From a virus, in IMG/VR virus record IMGVR_UViG_3300023179_000323, positions 1 to 32,606 of that record: 32,606 bases of DNA. One strand, given 5' to 3'. Below the pieces are notes generated by a model. That model did not search any database and was not told where the DNA came from. It worked only from the letters and a program-made list of their open reading frames with translations. Position 1 is the first letter of the stretch, and each line of letters opens with the position of its first letter. The position numbers and the translations under genes were made by a program. Of the stretch, positions 1,221 through 9,105 are shown one piece after another.

Positions 1221-1709
1221 ATGGCACGCGGACCAGCACCAACGCCGAAGCACATCCTTCAACTGCGTGGCAGCAAGGAAGCCAAGTACCGCGAGGAGCT
1301 CGGCGAGGCCGTTTCGGCGATGCCGACTCCGCCGGAGTGGCTGCGTCCAGCCGCGAAGGAGATGTTCAATTTGGTCTGCGGGTATGCCCTGGGCATGGGC
1401 ACGCTCGCTAAGAGCGACTGCGAGGTCATCGCTCGCTACTCGGCCATCTGGGATCGGTGGCGCGAGGCAGAAATGCAGCTTGCCAAGGATGGCTGCGGTT
1501 ACGTTGAGGTTCTTGCCCCAGACGGCACCCTCCGTTTTACGCGGCCCAGCAAGTGGCAGTATCAAGCCAACGTCTGCCACGAGCAGCTTCGTCAACTTGA
1601 AACCGTCCTGGGTCTCACCCCCGCAGACCGCACCCGCCTGGGATATGGCGCGGTGAAGGTCGTCGCCGACCCCGTGGACGAACTATTCGGTGACACGGCG
1701 ACAGGTTGA
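1221..1709 (+). CDS. terS: Terminase small subunit, P27 family
   Basis: The 162-residue product matches the P27-type small terminase (Terminase_4 family) in length and pattern. It opens with the typical basic and proline-rich MARGPAPTPKHILQLRG, has a P.WL...A...F segment near residues 37-50, and ends in a helical part with LTPADRTRLG near 131-140. The family recognises the packaging start site on phage DNA and recruits the large subunit. The gene starts two bases after the HNH stop and overlaps the large terminase by 20 bases, which is the usual order in HK97-like phages. The assignment rests on family pattern and synteny. Confidence 0.88.
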   Translation: MARGPAPTPKHILQLRGSKEAKYREELGEAVSAMPTPPEWLRPAAKEMFNLVCGYALGMGTLAKSDCEVIARYSAIWDRWREAEMQLAKDGCGYVEVLAPDGTLRFTRPSKWQYQANVCHEQLRQLETVLGLTPADRTRLGYGAVKVVADPVDELFGDTATG

Positions 1710-3210
1710 TATCAAGCAGTTCGCCGGGTTACTACGGCACAGCGAAGGCGACTTCGCCGGCAAGCCGTTCACGCTCCAGCCCTGGCAGGAGCAGTATCTG
1801 GAGCGGCTGTTCAACACCCGCAAACCAGACGGCCGCCGGCAGTATCAGCGGTCGCTCCTGGCGGTGCCTCGAAAGGCCGGCAAGACTGCGACCTGCGCTC
1901 TTATCGGCGCATACGAGGGTTTCTTTGGCGACGAGGGCGGCCAGATTCTGATCGCCGCCGGCGACCGGAAGCAGGCCAGCCTCCTGTTCACGGCGTGCTC
2001 GAGGTTCATCGAGTCCTGCCCCGGCCTGCTCAAGCGGGCGAAAATCTACAAGAACTCGATCGTCATCCCGCACAAGAAGAGCACGATCCAGTTCCTTTCC
2101 AGCGAGCACAAAGGCAAGCACGGCTTTAACCCGTCAGTGGTGATCGTCGACGAGTTTCATGTGCAGCCCAATCGCGATCTGGTCGATGTGCTGGAGAGCG
2201 GCATGGGCATGCGGGCCGAGCCGCTGGTCATCTACGTCACGACGGCCGGCATGGACCGCATCGGCCCCTGCTTTGACGAGTGGCAGCGGGCCATCCGGGT
2301 TCGCGACGGCCTGATCGACGACCCGACGTTTCTGCCGTGCATCTACGCCGCCGACCCGGAGGATGACATCTTCGCCGAGTCGACCTGGGCCAAGGCCAAC
2401 CCGAACTACGGCGTCACCGTCCGCAAGGAGTTCATGGAGCGGGAGGCCGCGCTGGCCCGCGAGAGCGTCGCCCAGGAGATCAAGTTTCGGACGCTGTACC
2501 TGAACCAGTGGACGAGCAACGGCAGCAACAAGTTCTTCCGCACTGGCCTCTGGGAGAAGTGCGGCGCGCCGCTGCGAGACCTCTCCGGCAGGTCGTGCTA
2601 CTGCGGCCTCGACCTGTCGTCGACATCGGACACGACGGCGTTCGCGATGGTCTGGCCCGGCGTCGATGAGCACGGCAACTTCGATGGCACCTATGACATC
2701 GCCGCCCATCTGTTCATCCCCGAGGCCGGCGCCGACCGCGACGAGGCGCCGTATCGCCAATGGGCCAAGGATGGATTCTGTACAATTACGGATGGTGACG
2801 TGACCGACTACGACGTGGTTCGCGACTATGTTCTCTCGTTTTGCGAGAGGAACATCGTTCGCGGTGTAGCCATCGACCGCTGGAATGCCACTCACCTGAC
2901 GACGCAACTGACCAACGAAGGCATCGAAGTCAAGCCTTTCGGGCAGGGCTACGCCTCGATGTCAGCGCCGACGAAGCTGCTTGAGACACTCGTGATCGGC
3001 TCGAAAATCCGGCACGCCGGCAATCCGGCCCTGGCACTACAGGTGTCGAATATGCAGGTGAAGGTCGACGACGCCGGCAACATAAAGCCAACGAAGCAGC
3101 ACTCTCACGCCACAGCCAGGATCGACGCCGCCGTCGCCCTGATCATGGCTCTGGGCATCTCCAGCGGCGAACTGCCCAGCACCGACGAACCCATGCTCAT
3201 GGTGATCTGA
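1690..3210 (+). CDS. terL: Terminase large subunit (Terminase_1 type)
   Basis: This 506-residue protein is the DNA-packaging motor ATPase and nuclease. The N-terminal ATPase shows a deviant Walker A VPRKAGKT at 59-66, Walker B VVIVDEF at 150-156 and a TTAG coupling motif at 184-187. The C-terminal RNase H-like nuclease has its acidic residues at D308 (GLDLSST), D396 (VAIDRWNA) and D479 (ARIDAAVALI). Length and motif order are complete for the family. It starts at a GTG inside the small terminase gene and its TGA shares one base with the portal ATG. It would pump the genome through the portal into the prohead and cut concatemers. There is no sign of an intein or truncation. Confidence 0.96.
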   Translation: MTRRQVDIKQFAGLLRHSEGDFAGKPFTLQPWQEQYLERLFNTRKPDGRRQYQRSLLAVPRKAGKTATCALIGAYEGFFGDEGGQILIAAGDRKQASLLFTACSRFIESCPGLLKRAKIYKNSIVIPHKKSTIQFLSSEHKGKHGFNPSVVIVDEFHVQPNRDLVDVLESGMGMRAEPLVIYVTTAGMDRIGPCFDEWQRAIRVRDGLIDDPTFLPCIYAADPEDDIFAESTWAKANPNYGVTVRKEFMEREAALARESVAQEIKFRTLYLNQWTSNGSNKFFRTGLWEKCGAPLRDLSGRSCYCGLDLSSTSDTTAFAMVWPGVDEHGNFDGTYDIAAHLFIPEAGADRDEAPYRQWAKDGFCTITDGDVTDYDVVRDYVLSFCERNIVRGVAIDRWNATHLTTQLTNEGIEVKPFGQGYASMSAPTKLLETLVIGSKIRHAGNPALALQVSNMQVKVDDAGNIKPTKQHSHATARIDAAVALIMALGISSGELPSTDEPMLMVI

Positions 3211-4865
3211 TGGCGGAGATCGACCTCGCCAGGCAAGCTGCCGCCGCGGAGGACGAGGCCGCCGGCGTGGGCGATGTCATCGAACTGCGCAGCAACCTGG
3301 GCCGCATCTTCGAGGAGATCACCAACACCCGGCGAACCGCCGCCGGCGTGACCGTCAGCCCGGAGACGGCCCTTGAATGCAGCGCGGTTCTGGCCTGCGT
3401 CCGCGTCATCTCCGAGTCGATGGCTGCGATGCCCCTGAACGTCTGCCGTCGCCTGCCCGGCGGCGGCCACGAGCTCGCCACCGACCAGCACCTTCACGAG
3501 GTCTTGGCGTACCAGCCCAACTCGTGGATGACCAGCTTCGAGTTCAAGGAGCTCATGCAGTCCTGGCTTCTCCTCTGGGGCAACGCCTACGCGCTGATCA
3601 AGGGCGGCAGCAAGGGCGGCGTGACCGAGCTCATCCCGCTTCACCCCTCCCGCATGGAGGTGAAGCGGCTCGAGAACGGGAAGCTCCAGTACTCATACCG
3701 GCAGCCGACCACTCCCGAGCAGCCGCTGCCCGAGCCCATCAAGTATCGGCAGGACGAGATTTTTCATTGCCGCTGGCTGAGCTCCGATGGCGTGACCGGA
3801 TATGTGCCGACGGTTCTTTCCCGCGATGCCATCGCGCTGGCGAGGGCGACCGAGATTCACTCGGGGTCGTTCTTCGGCAATGGCGCGCGGGCCGGCACCT
3901 ACATCGAGACCGATCAGCCGCACAAGCCCGAGGCTCTCCAGCGGTTCAAGCAGCAGTGGGACGAGGCCCACCAGGGGCCGGACAAAGCCTTCAAGACCGT
4001 CGTCATGCCGTATGGCTTTCACAAGAAGGCCGACGAGGTCCGCAACGATTCTGCCCAACTGCTCGAGACACGCCGCTTTCAACTCGAAGAGGTGGCGAGG
4101 TGCTACCGTGTCGCGCCGCATTTGATCGGCGACCTGACCAACGTCCGCTACAACACGGTCGAGCAGTCGGCAATCGACTTCGTCACCTTCACGCTGATCC
4201 CCTGGTGCCGGCGGTGGGAGATGGCCTGCCGCCGCGACTTGGTCGTCGACGACAAGAGCTACTTCGTCCAGTTCGACATCAACTCGCTGATGGCCGGCGA
4301 CTACGCCGCCCGGTCGAAGTTCCTCCGAGAGATGTGGAACATGGGCGCGCTGGACATCGATGAGCTCCGCGCCCAGATCGGCTACAACCCGCTGCCTGAC
4401 GACCAGGGCAAGAAGCGGTTCGTGCAGGTGAATATGCAGCTTCTGGAAGCCTTCACTGTCGACAATCCGACGGGCCAGAAGAAGACGGCGGCCCCGCCGC
4501 CGGCCGGCATCGGCGAAGGCGACGGCGACTCGTTCACCATCGACCAGCAGGCCAGGGCGGCCGCCGAGGTCACGTTCAAGACGACGCTTCGGCGTCTCGC
4601 TGCCGTCGAGGCCGCCGGCGTGCTCGACCGCCGCAACAAGCCCGAGAAGATGTCGTCCTGGCTGGATCAGATGACGGCCAGGATGCGGGACGAGCTCAGG
4701 GAATCGGCGGAGGCCGCGGGCCGCGACATCGATCAGTTCGTTTCCGAATGGGTCGGCCGGTCGCGAGAGCTTTTGCTCGAGTGCCACCGCAGCGGCCAGA
4801 AGTACGAAAGTGTCACCGAGGACTGGTGCGACAAGCACCTAGCTACAGATGCCCCAGCCACTTGA
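3210..4865 (+). CDS. Portal protein, HK97 family
   Basis: The 551-residue protein is the dodecameric ring at the capsid vertex through which DNA passes. Family features include the early segment SAVLACVRVISESMAAMPL (about 57-75), NSWMTSFEFKELMQSWLLLWGNAYALI in the clip/wing part, the FFGNGARAGTYI loop and the APHLIGD helix near 306-312. It is longer than many HK97-type portals (about 400-450 residues). The extra C-terminal part, from roughly residue 430, starts with a Pro/Ala linker and continues as charged helices, which could face the capsid interior. It shares one base with the terL stop (TGATG) and overlaps the ferritin-like gene by 17 bases, so expression is probably coupled. Confidence 0.95.
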   Translation: MAEIDLARQAAAAEDEAAGVGDVIELRSNLGRIFEEITNTRRTAAGVTVSPETALECSAVLACVRVISESMAAMPLNVCRRLPGGGHELATDQHLHEVLAYQPNSWMTSFEFKELMQSWLLLWGNAYALIKGGSKGGVTELIPLHPSRMEVKRLENGKLQYSYRQPTTPEQPLPEPIKYRQDEIFHCRWLSSDGVTGYVPTVLSRDAIALARATEIHSGSFFGNGARAGTYIETDQPHKPEALQRFKQQWDEAHQGPDKAFKTVVMPYGFHKKADEVRNDSAQLLETRRFQLEEVARCYRVAPHLIGDLTNVRYNTVEQSAIDFVTFTLIPWCRRWEMACRRDLVVDDKSYFVQFDINSLMAGDYAARSKFLREMWNMGALDIDELRAQIGYNPLPDDQGKKRFVQVNMQLLEAFTVDNPTGQKKTAAPPPAGIGEGDGDSFTIDQQARAAAEVTFKTTLRRLAAVEAAGVLDRRNKPEKMSSWLDQMTARMRDELRESAEAAGRDIDQFVSEWVGRSRELLLECHRSGQKYESVTEDWCDKHLATDAPAT

Positions 4866-5322
4866 CGGCGTCGTCGAAGCCTTGCAGGCGTCCCTTGCCC
4901 TCCACTGGTCGCAGGCGGAGATGTACGACCTTCAGGCCGTGCATCTGTCCCGCTGGGGCTATGCGTCGCTGGGGAAAACCTGGGCGGCGTATGCTGCTGA
5001 AGAGCGGAAGCACATCAAGAAGATTTCCAAGCGACTGGAATACTTCGACGTGCAGCCGTCGCCGACGCATCTGGAGCCGGAACTGCCGCGGCACGACTTC
5101 GAGATGCTCTTGGACTCCAACTACGAGGCCGACACGCAGGCCGCCGAGGTCGAGCGGGCCGGCTTCATGCAGTGCATTCTTGTCGGAGACTCTGTCACGG
5201 CGAAACTGTTCACGAAACTGCGCCGTGGCAGCGAGGAATCGATGGCGAACATCGAGGCGATTCGGAAGGTGATCGAGCAGATTGGCATCGACAACTACTT
5301 GGCGAATCAGGTGACCGCATGA
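4849..5322 (+). CDS. Bacterioferritin-like four-helix protein in the head operon
   Basis: The 157 residues align end to end with bacterioferritin when compared with the family sequence from memory. The WG at 36-37 is followed by a helix carrying ERKH at 52-55, matching the E..H metal ligands of helix B, and the C-terminus QIGIDNYLANQ mirrors the family ending KMGLQNYLQAQ. Key positions differ: the first-helix glutamate ligand aligns with H19, the heme methionine (EMKH) is R53, and the last-helix E..H pair is not evident near 128-132. It is therefore ferritin-like in fold, but heme binding looks lost and ferroxidase activity doubtful. It starts inside the portal gene and ends in an ATGA overlap with the protease, so it is expressed with head proteins. 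It could be a virion or assembly component, or an iron-handling accessory protein. Confidence 0.78.
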   Translation: MPQPLDGVVEALQASLALHWSQAEMYDLQAVHLSRWGYASLGKTWAAYAAEERKHIKKISKRLEYFDVQPSPTHLEPELPRHDFEMLLDSNYEADTQAAEVERAGFMQCILVGDSVTAKLFTKLRRGSEESMANIEAIRKVIEQIGIDNYLANQVTA

Positions 5323-7604
5323 GCAGCGAAATCGAGCGTCGGACAACGGTTCAAGAGGCCACTGTCGAGTATCGCGACATGGGCAACGGCGAGAAAAAGC
5401 CCGTGATTACGGGCTACGCCGCCGTCTTTAACTCCGAGAGCCGCAACCTGGGCGGCTTTGTCGAGACGATTCACCCGTCGGCATTCGACGAAGTGCTCTC
5501 GACGAACCCAGATGTCATCGGCGTGTTCAACCATGACCGCAATCTGCTGCTGGGTCGCACCGGAAACGGCTCGATGCGGCTGATGAAAGACCCGTATGGG
5601 CTCCGCTACGAGATCATGCCCAACGAAAACACCTCCATTGGGCGCGATGTGGTGCAGTGGGTGCAGGATCGGACGGTCGTCGGCAGCAGTTTTGCCTTCG
5701 CGATCAAGCGAGACGGCGGCGATTCGTGGTCTACGGACGCTCAGAAGGGCATTCGGCGGCGTGAAGTGCGAAATATCGGCCTGCTCGAGGACGTCGGGCC
5801 CGTGGTGAGGCCCGCCTACGACTCCTCCAGCGTGGTTGTGAGCCGTCGAGCCATCGAGATGGCGCTCGGCGAGACGTTTCGGCCGATTCAGACGATGGCG
5901 AACGCCGCAAAGCGCGGCCTCAAGCTCGCCCAGAGGCATGAAAACGTCGATTCTCGCCTGATTTGCATCGCCGAGAGGCTCGCCGCCCGCGAAATCGTGT
6001 CTGTCGAGGAGGTTTCGTACCTCTCCGGCGTCTACGAGCGGTGCGTGGCGGCGAAAACGACCGGCTGGTCGGGATCGCCGGCCTGGATCGAGTGGCAACT
6101 GGCCGGCGGAGACTCCGGCGAGAAGTGGATCAGCCGCCGGATGTCGTCGATGGGCTACGAGGACGACCAGATGGACGATCAGTACCGCGCCGACATGGTC
6201 GAGGCCGGCGATTTCGTCTCTTGGGACGAGGGAATGGGCCAGATCGAGTACATCATGCAGGAGGGAACGCTCCAGGGCCAGACGGCGTCGGCCGATTCGC
6301 CGCTGGCGGTGATCACTCCGTTCGACGACGGCGAGCCCGAGGACTACCTCGTGGTCGTCGGCGTGTCGGAACTGACCAAGGTCGACGATCCCGAGGAGGA
6401 TCGGATGGCCGGCGACAAGTCGCAGTCGACGCCCGCGCCCGAAAAGGACCGCGTGAAGGGCAGCGACACGAACCCGGCCGGCTCGGCCAAGAACGCGGCC
6501 GGGAAGATCAGCGTCTCCAATGCCGTTCGTGCTGGCCTCCAGAACAAGGTCCGCGACCACAACAAGGCCATGCGAGAGGACGACAAGCCGGCGTGGACGA
6601 GAACGACGCTGGGGCAGCTTCTGGCGGTCTATCGGCGCGGCTCTGGCGCATATTCGACGAGCCATCGCCCCGGCGTCAGCCGGGCTGCCTGGTCGATGGC
6701 GAGGGTCAACGCCTACCTGTACCTCCTGCGAAACGGCAAGCCGCAGGATTCCAAGTACGTCAGCGACGACGACCTGCTGCCCTCCGGCCATCCGAAGTCA
6801 TCGAAGGAGCGAAGCGTCGAGGTTGAGGTCGAGCAGCGGGAGGTTGACCTCAAGCCGACCAGCGGCATGGCCGCCGCGGCCAAGCGCGGCCTCGAGCTTC
6901 ACGCACAGGGCCGGGCCGGCGACGGCCTGATGCCTGAGACGGTGGCGAACGCCAGGAAGATCGCCAACCGGGAGAACCTGAGCCCCGAGCACATCCGCAG
7001 GATGCGTGCCTGGTTCCGCCGGCACAAGGTCGACAAGCGGCCCGACTGGTCGAAGAAGGGCGCGGAGACCCCGGGGTACACGGCCTTCATGCTCTGGGGC
7101 GGCTCGGCCGCCATGCGATGGTCTGAGGCCAAGGTCGCCCAGATGGAGCGGGAGAGCGGCGCTCGCGACATGGGCGAGGGGATGGAGGAGAACTACCCCG
7201 GCACCATATCGCAGCCGTTCCTCGAGCTTGCCCAAGCTCAGGAGGCCATCGTCGAAAACAACGGCCAGTGGAATCAGGGCTACGTCAACGGCGCACACTA
7301 CATGGAAGCCAGCCCGTTTGCCAAGGATGGCATCGCGTGTGCGAACTGCATTTTCTACGAAGGCGGCGGCGGTTGTGAGATCGTCTCCGGCGAGATCAAC
7401 CCCGCCGGCGTCTGCAAGTTTTGGGTCATCCCCGAGGAACGTATGTCCGAAGAACAGGCGGCATCGAAGACCGAGAAGCCGGCGGAGACGCAGCAGCCCG
7501 CCGAGCGGTCGAATGACGAGAGCATGGACATGGCCGTCAAGCTGGCCGCGCTGAAGGCAACAATTCTTCAGACTCAGTTGCACGGCGCGAGTTCCGGTCA
7601 GTAG
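5319..7604 (+). CDS. Prohead protease with large C-terminal extension and HiPIP-like motif
   Basis: Residues 1-185 of this 761-residue protein form an HK97-type prohead protease (Peptidase_S78): ITGYAAVFN at 30-38, catalytic-type His in FNHD (H72) and Ser in GSSFAF (S124). It would trim the capsid delta domain. The rest is unusual. Two related segments begin AAKRGL at 196 and 520, the second ending with MLWGGSAAMRW near 591-601. Between them lies a segment with VYRRGSGAYSTSHRPGVSR near 437-455. A CANC-x8-C-x12-C motif (C674, C677, C686, C699) followed by FW resembles the cluster-binding end of high-potential iron-sulfur proteins. The start is the ATG at 5319, overlapping the ferritin-like stop (ATGA); a longer upstream start would run through that gene. 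Most family proteases are only about 200-300 residues. The protease call is firm, the extra domain roles unknown. Confidence 0.88.
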   Translation: MSSEIERRTTVQEATVEYRDMGNGEKKPVITGYAAVFNSESRNLGGFVETIHPSAFDEVLSTNPDVIGVFNHDRNLLLGRTGNGSMRLMKDPYGLRYEIMPNENTSIGRDVVQWVQDRTVVGSSFAFAIKRDGGDSWSTDAQKGIRRREVRNIGLLEDVGPVVRPAYDSSSVVVSRRAIEMALGETFRPIQTMANAAKRGLKLAQRHENVDSRLICIAERLAAREIVSVEEVSYLSGVYERCVAAKTTGWSGSPAWIEWQLAGGDSGEKWISRRMSSMGYEDDQMDDQYRADMVEAGDFVSWDEGMGQIEYIMQEGTLQGQTASADSPLAVITPFDDGEPEDYLVVVGVSELTKVDDPEEDRMAGDKSQSTPAPEKDRVKGSDTNPAGSAKNAAGKISVSNAVRAGLQNKVRDHNKAMREDDKPAWTRTTLGQLLAVYRRGSGAYSTSHRPGVSRAAWSMARVNAYLYLLRNGKPQDSKYVSDDDLLPSGHPKSSKERSVEVEVEQREVDLKPTSGMAAAAKRGLELHAQGRAGDGLMPETVANARKIANRENLSPEHIRRMRAWFRRHKVDKRPDWSKKGAETPGYTAFMLWGGSAAMRWSEAKVAQMERESGARDMGEGMEENYPGTISQPFLELAQAQEAIVENNGQWNQGYVNGAHYMEASPFAKDGIACANCIFYEGGGGCEIVSGEINPAGVCKFWVIPEERMSEEQAASKTEKPAETQQPAERSNDESMDMAVKLAALKATILQTQLHGASSGQ

Positions 7605-7752
7605 GCTACAAAAAGACACATTGCTTCGCGGCGGACGTCGCGAAGATCAGTGCGAGCGCTCTGCGGATGCATGAGCGCGGCGCGCTAGCGGGTACACCCG
7701 CCGGCCGCCGCACTGTCGCGTTTGGCCGGCTCAACCAGGAGCAGGCCAAATC
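7605..7752 (+). promoter_or_regulatory. Protease-capsid intergenic region with hairpin and capsid RBS
   Basis: This 148-base gap is one of the two longest in the window. It holds a perfect 7-bp inverted repeat, CTTCGCG at 7624-7630 and CGCGAAG at 7639-7645, with an 8-base loop, and a smaller GC stem near 7688-7701. An AGGAG at 7737-7741 serves the capsid ATG at 7753 with a rather long 11-base spacing. No T-run follows the hairpins, so a terminator is unlikely. The region may set the higher expression of the capsid gene by a promoter or an mRNA end, but no promoter boxes are clear. Confidence 0.4.
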
Positions 7753-9105
7753 ATGGCGTCGAACCTCAAGCGTCTTCAGGACCGTGCCGCGGCTCTCGCC
7801 GCGAAGATGACGGAGCTCGTGAACCTCTCGGAGCGTTCCGAGGAGCAGAACAACGATCTCAAGAAGCTCTCGGTCGAGTGCGACGCCATCAAGGCCGACC
7901 TCGACTTCGAGAACCGGATCGCCGCGAAGGAGGCCGAGCTTCGGGCCGTCGTCGAGCAGGCCGCCCCCGCCCCGGTCGCCGCCCCCGTGGCCGCTCCGGC
8001 CGTCGAGGAGAAGAAGCTCGACATCCGGGCGATCCTCCCCCACCACACCCAGCTTCGTGCGTTCAACGAGCGGGCCGAGGACGTCGAGACGGCGTACAAG
8101 ATGGGCCGGTGGCTCCGGGCGAACATCTTCAAGAACGCCGAAGACCTCCGGTGGTGCAAGGATCACGGCGTCGAGAGCCGTGCCCTGGGCGAGAACTCGC
8201 AGTCTTCGGGTGGCGCGCTGGTGCCCGAAGAGTTCGCGGCCCGCGTGATTCGGCTCGTCGAAAACTACGGAACCTTCGCCGCGTCGAGCGTCGAGAAGGT
8301 GACGATGACCCGCGACACGATGATCGTGCCGAAGCGTGTCACGGGCACGACGGCCTACTTCGTCGGCGAAGGCACGGCGGTCAGCGAGAGCGAGCCGACC
8401 TACGCGAACGTGCAACTCATCGCCAAAAAGCTGGCGTGCGGAACGAGGCTCAGTTCGGAGGTGTTCGAGGACGCACTCGTCAGCCTGGCTGACGCGGTGG
8501 CGACCGAGTTCGCGACGAGCCTGGCCTACAAGACGGACCTCTGCGGCTGGGTCGGCGACGGCACCAGCACCTACGGCGGCATCCAGGGCATCGTGTCGAA
8601 GGTCGACGACGGCACCCACGGCGCTGCGGTGGTCACGGCCGACTCGACCCACACCTCGTTCGAGACGCTGACCATCACCGACTTCACGAAGGTGATGGGC
8701 AAGCTGCCGCTCTACGCCCGCCAGGGTGCCGAGTGGTACATCAGCCCGGCCGGCTACGCCGCGGCGATGGCCCGTCTCCGCTACGCGGCCGGCGGCAACA
8801 CCGTCGCCGACCTGAGCGGCGGGGTGAACGAGACGTTCCTCGGCTACAAGGTCAACCTCGTGCATGTGATGAACAGCACGCTGGGCGCCGACGCCAGCAA
8901 GGTCAAGGTGCTGTTCGGCAACCTGGGTCTGTCGAGCATCTACGCTCGCCGGCGTGACTTTTCGGTGCGGCTGTACGATCAGGTCTACGCCACCACCGAC
9001 CAGCTTCTGCTCCAGGGAACCATGCGGTTCGACATCGTCCATCACTCGCTCGGCGATGCGTCGGTCGCCGGCCCCGTCGTGGCCCTCAAGACCGCCGCGT
9101 CCTGA
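7753..9105 (+). CDS. Major capsid protein, HK97 fold
   Basis: The 450-residue protein forms the icosahedral shell. Residues 1-66 are a charged coiled coil (delta domain), which acts as internal scaffold in this family and is cut off by the protease. An Ala/Pro linker at 71-84 follows. The mature part carries family segments: SQSSGGALVPEEFAARVI, a YFVGEGTAVSESEP stretch in the E-loop and A-domain area, YGGIQGI, and AEWYISPAGYAAAM. No separate scaffold gene is present, in keeping with a built-in delta domain. It lies directly downstream of the protease, the canonical order. The exact cleavage site cannot be fixed from sequence alone, but lies most likely between about residues 85 and 150. Confidence 0.95.
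   Translation: MASNLKRLQDRAAALAAKMTELVNLSERSEEQNNDLKKLSVECDAIKADLDFENRIAAKEAELRAVVEQAAPAPVAAPVAAPAVEEKKLDIRAILPHHTQLRAFNERAEDVETAYKMGRWLRANIFKNAEDLRWCKDHGVESRALGENSQSSGGALVPEEFAARVIRLVENYGTFAASSVEKVTMTRDTMIVPKRVTGTTAYFVGEGTAVSESEPTYANVQLIAKKLACGTRLSSEVFEDALVSLADAVATEFATSLAYKTDLCGWVGDGTSTYGGIQGIVSKVDDGTHGAAVVTADSTHTSFETLTITDFTKVMGKLPLYARQGAEWYISPAGYAAAMARLRYAAGGNTVADLSGGVNETFLGYKVNLVHVMNSTLGADASKVKVLFGNLGLSSIYARRRDFSVRLYDQVYATTDQLLLQGTMRFDIVHHSLGDASVAGPVVALKTAAS

Follow-up and report, generated by a model that had tools for sequence, protein, structure and literature searches.

A bacterioferritin-like gene with an altered metal site in the portal-protease slot of a group of related phages

In the bacterioferritins (Bfr) of cells the diiron site is formed by six ligands, E18, E51, H54, E94, E127 and H130, which are also visible in our alignment. 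Mixed bacterioferritins containing a ferroxidase-poor subunit, such as Shewanella SoBfr12 (structure 9iig), are known as cellular pairs. Another member of the superfamily, the encapsulin cargo EncFtn, is encoded near a shell of HK97 fold. In phages, ferritin-type proteins in general are already known, as can be seen from two papers (PMC8008677, PMC10892097). The Dps and Mn-catalase genes of gut phages were read as oxidative-stress helpers; they too are ferritin-superfamily genes of tailed phages, but they belong to other subfamilies than the gene described below, and the part of that paper considered here describes no fixed head-operon slot for them (PMC8008677). In Vi01-like phages the ferritin-like protein gp217 is encoded near structural genes and was detected by mass spectrometry, and the iron-entry role proposed for it found no support in the host that was examined; unlike our gene, that of gp217 adjoins a tail gene, and its assignment was made with Phyre2 at 22% identity (PMC10892097). 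A literature search found no paper joining bacterioferritin or Dps with a prohead protease.

The gene studied here lies in a window of 32 606 nucleotides, the whole stretch of viral DNA that was analysed (IMG/VR record IMGVR_UViG_3300023179_000323). It occupies positions 4849-5322 of the + strand and encodes a protein of 157 amino acids. Pfam identifies its neighbours, all on the + strand, as genes for the terminase large subunit (TerL, 1690-3210; PF20441, E 9e-43), the portal (3210-4865; PF04860, E 2e-90), the prohead protease (5319-7604; Peptidase_S78, PF04586, E 1e-34) and the major capsid protein (7753-9105; Phage_capsid, PF05065, E 2e-31), and a TerS gene is found among them as well. The preliminary description had placed the gene between portal and protease and overlapping both, and so it does: it shares 17 nt with the portal gene, and its stop codon overlaps the protease start in the ATGA at 5319-5322. 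The protease itself is unusually long (761 amino acids) and differs in length from one relative to another; its long C-terminal part has matches to DUF5824 and phrog_2859. On the 3′ side of the capsid gene, a conserved ORF at 9693-10421 matches the glycosyltransferase family PF13632 barely over threshold (28.4 against 27 bits). In two relatives, L035 (6118-8707) and L036 (6156-8184), the interval between protease and capsid is about 2-2.6 kb and contains no gene homologous to one of the window.

The protein scores 40.1 bits against the Ferritin family PF00210 (gathering score 24.5, E 4.3e-10), and bacterioferritins of the PDB are matched at E 2.6e-10 with the single sequence and at 1.5e-16 with the family profile. 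It reaches only 37.1 bits with the NCBIfam bfr equivalog (TIGR00754), far under the cut-off of 125.55, and no PHROGs model matches it. An AlphaFold2 model, built from 42 family sequences (mean pLDDT 94.7, pTM 0.87), shows four long helices plus a fifth that is short, and superposes on bacterioferritin with a Z of 24 and an rmsd of 1.1 Å over 155 residues (Foldseek, VIA-align). Nearly all top matches with these programs are bacterioferritins, together with a few bacterial ferritins, which rules out an unrelated helical bundle; the closest one for Foldseek is 9iig. The four-helix ferritin fold that had been proposed, together with the family assignment, was thus upheld in the two analyses that could have contradicted it, structure prediction and profile search, and no better match elsewhere was encountered. 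Concerning Dps, the model lacks a BC-loop helix and has a fifth helix; bacterioferritins fill the list of matched structures, but the non-listing of Dps there excludes nothing. Weak Foldseek matches to the model (E 4e-3 to 2e-2) were also obtained with three BFVD entries, A0A6J7WIS1, A0A6J7WPK9 and A0A6J7XDU5, which are uncultured-phage proteins named prohead protease and in which the protease may be fused to a domain of the ferritin-like or Dps-like kind.

Identity to solved Bfr structures is 20-25%. Residues 2-157 of the model are nearly collinear with residues 1-156 of BfrB, with an offset of one residue, so that positions can be mapped directly from one protein to the other. What is shared with the bacterioferritins (TIGR00754; P. 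aeruginosa BfrB, E. coli Bfr) is the fold, the length, this alignment and, in Bfr numbering, residues W35-G36, E51, H54, Y25, R61, E128, E135 and the C-terminal IGIDNYL. The W36-G37, E52-R53-K54-H55 and Q144-IGIDNYLANQ-154 segments from which a bacterioferritin pattern had first been recognized are indeed present. What differs is E18 (His in the phage protein), E127 (Ser), H130 (Ser or Ala), M52 (Arg) and the positions for docking of Bfd; the three peculiarities that had been noticed at the outset, namely an arginine in place of the haem methionine, a histidine as first-helix ligand and an E..H pair that was not evident in the last helix, are real ones.

We counted residues in 59 distinct viral proteins of the family, a number that includes close relatives and so does not stand for 59 independent observations. 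Instead of the six-ligand set of Bfr, these proteins have H, E, H, D/E, S and S/A. His19 (codon 4903-4905, + strand), which replaces Glu18, is found in 59/59, as are E52 and H55, the equivalents of Glu51 and His54, within the Glu52-Arg53-Lys54-His55 stretch (5002-5013, +). Position 95, equivalent to Glu94 and an aspartate in the window (5131-5133, +), is D in 21 and E in 38. In the segment Ser128-Glu129-Glu130-Ser131 (5230-5241, +) the ligands Glu127 and His130 are lost, with serine at 128 in all 59 proteins and S (45) or A (14) at 131; E129, present in 58/59, adjoins the lost Glu127 and aligns with the cage contact Glu128, which is not a ligand position. The position of the haem ligand Met52 is occupied by Arg in 58 proteins (R53) and by Leu in one. 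L68, E81 and E85, the Bfd-docking residues of BfrB, are changed in the viral family to Q/E/A, H and mostly G, and in the same region a new motif, Arg81-His82-Asp83 (5089-5097, +), is present in 59/59; H32 and R35 are invariant as well. The salt-bridge residues of the cage are kept: R62, E129 and E136, corresponding to R61, E128 and E135 of Bfr, occur in 59/59, 58/59 and 58/59, respectively. In Bfr these contacts hold the 24-mer stable, their mutation giving dimers (PMC3179174). R30 and Y114, likewise important to Bfr assembly, are unconserved across the viral proteins. Judging from the sequences, one half of the diiron site is rebuilt with an extra histidine and the other half is removed, a residue pattern from which a mononuclear metal site can be inferred.

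Scans of IMG/VR yielded about 60 relatives (46-99% identity), all of the sequences being metagenomic contigs, many of them fragmentary. One scan of prokaryote genomes (genome_contigs) gave no cellular sequence above 31% identity, and a recent capture from a host was set aside on this basis; a phage record, MT835709.1, with 27% identity, was left aside because it is a metagenomic scaffold without annotation. The search of a phage collection brought up no close isolate, and the portals of named phages are less than 40% identical to that of the window phage. Almost all viral relatives of the gene sit between a homologous portal and a homologous protease. The sole family member outside the head slot, in L069 (2012-3821), is just 3′ of a tyrosine integrase gene, on a 10.6 kb contig without portal or protease match. 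In a survey of the slot seeded from portal and capsid relatives, 89 distinct portals had a readable junction with the protease gene: 50 junctions contain the Bfr-like gene, with a gap of 450-549 nt, and 39 are empty, with gaps of -25 to +49 nt that leave no room for another gene. A ferritin in this position had been thought rare; within this phage group it is carried by more than half of the distinct relatives. No compensating ferritin was found elsewhere in 10 slot-empty records of 12-70 kb, which are possibly incomplete.

On the portal tree, a quick tree from which the direction of change was not inferred, presence and absence change seven times, at least five of these changes being forced by well supported branches. 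When L072 is compared to L111 and L112, a scarred loss is observed: the initial codons of the gene persist, fused in frame to the protease, whose own ATG is now ACG. The junction of L219, compared by eye to those of L012 and L013 (part of L219 being misplaced in the automatic alignment), has the appearance of an exchange from start codon to start codon at short stretches of common bases. Proteins with D95 and E95 form the two sides of a branch with 99% support, and the type changes nine times on the portal tree. The portals of L027 and L065 are 98% identical and their Bfr-like proteins only 51% identical; this mismatch and the nine changes of type indicate that recombination in the slot has replaced one allele by another. 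Computed within types, dN/dS is 0.22 for the Bfr-like gene and 0.20 for the portal gene. A purifying selection similar to that on the portal argues that the gene has a function, and the ratio, together with the Pfam, PDB and structure matches, speaks against a chance reading frame of the kind that GC-rich DNA produces, a possibility that we reject.

Bfr-like genes, here with a complete set of ligands, are also encountered among the genes for head or packaging in two unrelated phage types. One is represented by L275 (IMGVR_UViG_3300042876_000259), a 52.8 kb contig with a lambda-type portal (PF05136), in which the order is portal, endolysin-like gene, Bfr-like gene, ClpP-type head protease, decoration protein and capsid; the slot (2567-8344) is comparable to that of the window, but the head module is not homologous. 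In the other, L075 (3478-5588) and L276 (2748-4851), a Bfr-like gene with canonical ligands is located just 5′ of TerL and an SU10-type portal. With few examples of each, convergence on a function across different phage modules is suggested; another possibility is that this part of the genome is just permissive to inserts.

What could the product do? The explanation we prefer, tentatively and at somewhat less than even chances, is that of a late-made, accessory and haem-free Bfr derivative, which would bind metal at the rebuilt site. Since its gene overlaps those of portal and protease, the protein is probably translated alongside them, and so late in infection. Retention of the four-helix fold and of the 24-mer salt-bridge residues makes it probable that it still builds a cage or enters an existing one. 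Having lost the haem ligand, the docking site for the iron-releasing partner Bfd and the Glu127/His130 half of the ferroxidase centre, it would use the half-site His19-Glu52-His55, conserved in every member and with Asp/Glu95 nearby, to bind iron or another divalent metal at single-metal sites. Metal would be sequestered in this way without fast O2-driven mineralisation, and free iron or oxidative damage might be buffered during packaging of the genome, a benefit that would be limited to some hosts or conditions. Retention of the ligand positions argues for metal, because the residues of a dead site should have drifted, and loss of the ferroxidase, haem and Bfd features argues against ordinary storage and release of iron; the conserved His and Glu could, however, serve packing instead. 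Two observations fit this explanation less well: R30 and Y114 are not conserved, and the wide allele swapping is explained no less well by interaction with a variable partner in the host than by simple buffering. Our best reading is a Bfr-derived metal binder acting either alone or mixed with host Bfr.

The second of these modes may be taken further, into a protein whose role is to be a partner of host Bfr, co-assembling through the conserved contacts and altering the uptake or release of iron by the host store. We hold this to be unlikely, yet the first of the alternatives to be considered. Cage contacts have been retained while the features for catalysis and release are gone, natural mixed cages exist, one of them being the top Foldseek match, and allele swaps among near-identical phages would suit matching to a variable partner. 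On the other hand, the low identity to solved bacterioferritins and the changed R30 and Y114 contacts are not what such a partnership would lead one to expect. The phage product also differs from subunits of the SoBfr12 type, with which it shares the idea of a subunit specialised in a mixed cage, in that no partner subunit is encoded by the phage and in that His18 and Ser127 (Bfr numbering) make a different pattern. Slightly less probable still is a bolder version, that of a phage-converted mononuclear His2-carboxylate metalloprotein built alongside the head, which would either ride with it or alter the host iron store by co-assembly; allele swapping would then reflect an arms race, and ferritins would have entered head modules more than once on account of a functional link between the assembly of heads and the handling of metal.

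A metal-free scaffold, in which the fold has been turned to a binding function, directed for instance at a host defence, with His and Glu in structural roles, appears improbable. The invariant surface-region motif R81-H82-D83, H32, R35 and the conserved R53 would be in line with it, and gain, loss and swapping recall accessory or anti-defence genes, but it does not account well for three ligand-position residues kept in all members and a position 95 that is always acidic. More doubtful is the virion or head-assembly role put forward in the preliminary description, where the ferritin fold would serve as a structural piece or as cargo in or around the head. The strict position of the gene, the Bfr-like genes in head and packaging regions of unrelated phages and the precedent of gp217 speak for it. 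Against it, 39 of the 89 relatives lack the gene next to homologous portal and protease genes, the state has changed repeatedly and a near-identical lineage has deleted the gene, so that an essential role of this kind is unlikely; in addition, slot-empty records revealed no substitute, and no tail or loading peptide extends beyond the Bfr length, in contrast to the EncFtn cargo, whose short subunit has two helices and carries a loading peptide at its C-terminus, the window protein having four long helices and ending at the Bfr C-terminus. Least probable of all is an ordinary ferroxidase-active Bfr acting as auxiliary metabolic gene with its ligands merely shifted, in spite of the PF00210 score and of an acidic E129 next to the lost Glu127, because equivalents of Glu127 and His130 are missing in every member, E129 is the cage contact and the score is so far below that of the Bfr equivalog.

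The usual interpretation of ferritin-type genes in phages is that they are auxiliary genes for stress or iron. The new parts here are the rebuilt metal site and the behaviour of the slot: a large family displays one consistent redesign of the Bfr site, a nearly fixed slot in the head operon, clean presence or absence in close relatives and allele swapping. This constitutes a natural experiment: the gene is present in some phages and missing from near-identical ones, it exists as two allele types, and in unrelated phages a counterpart with intact ligands occupies a comparable position. Should the site bind a single metal, the protein would stand out as a mononuclear ferritin of an unusual kind; should the protein join host Bfr, it would represent a phage intervention in the iron stores of the host.
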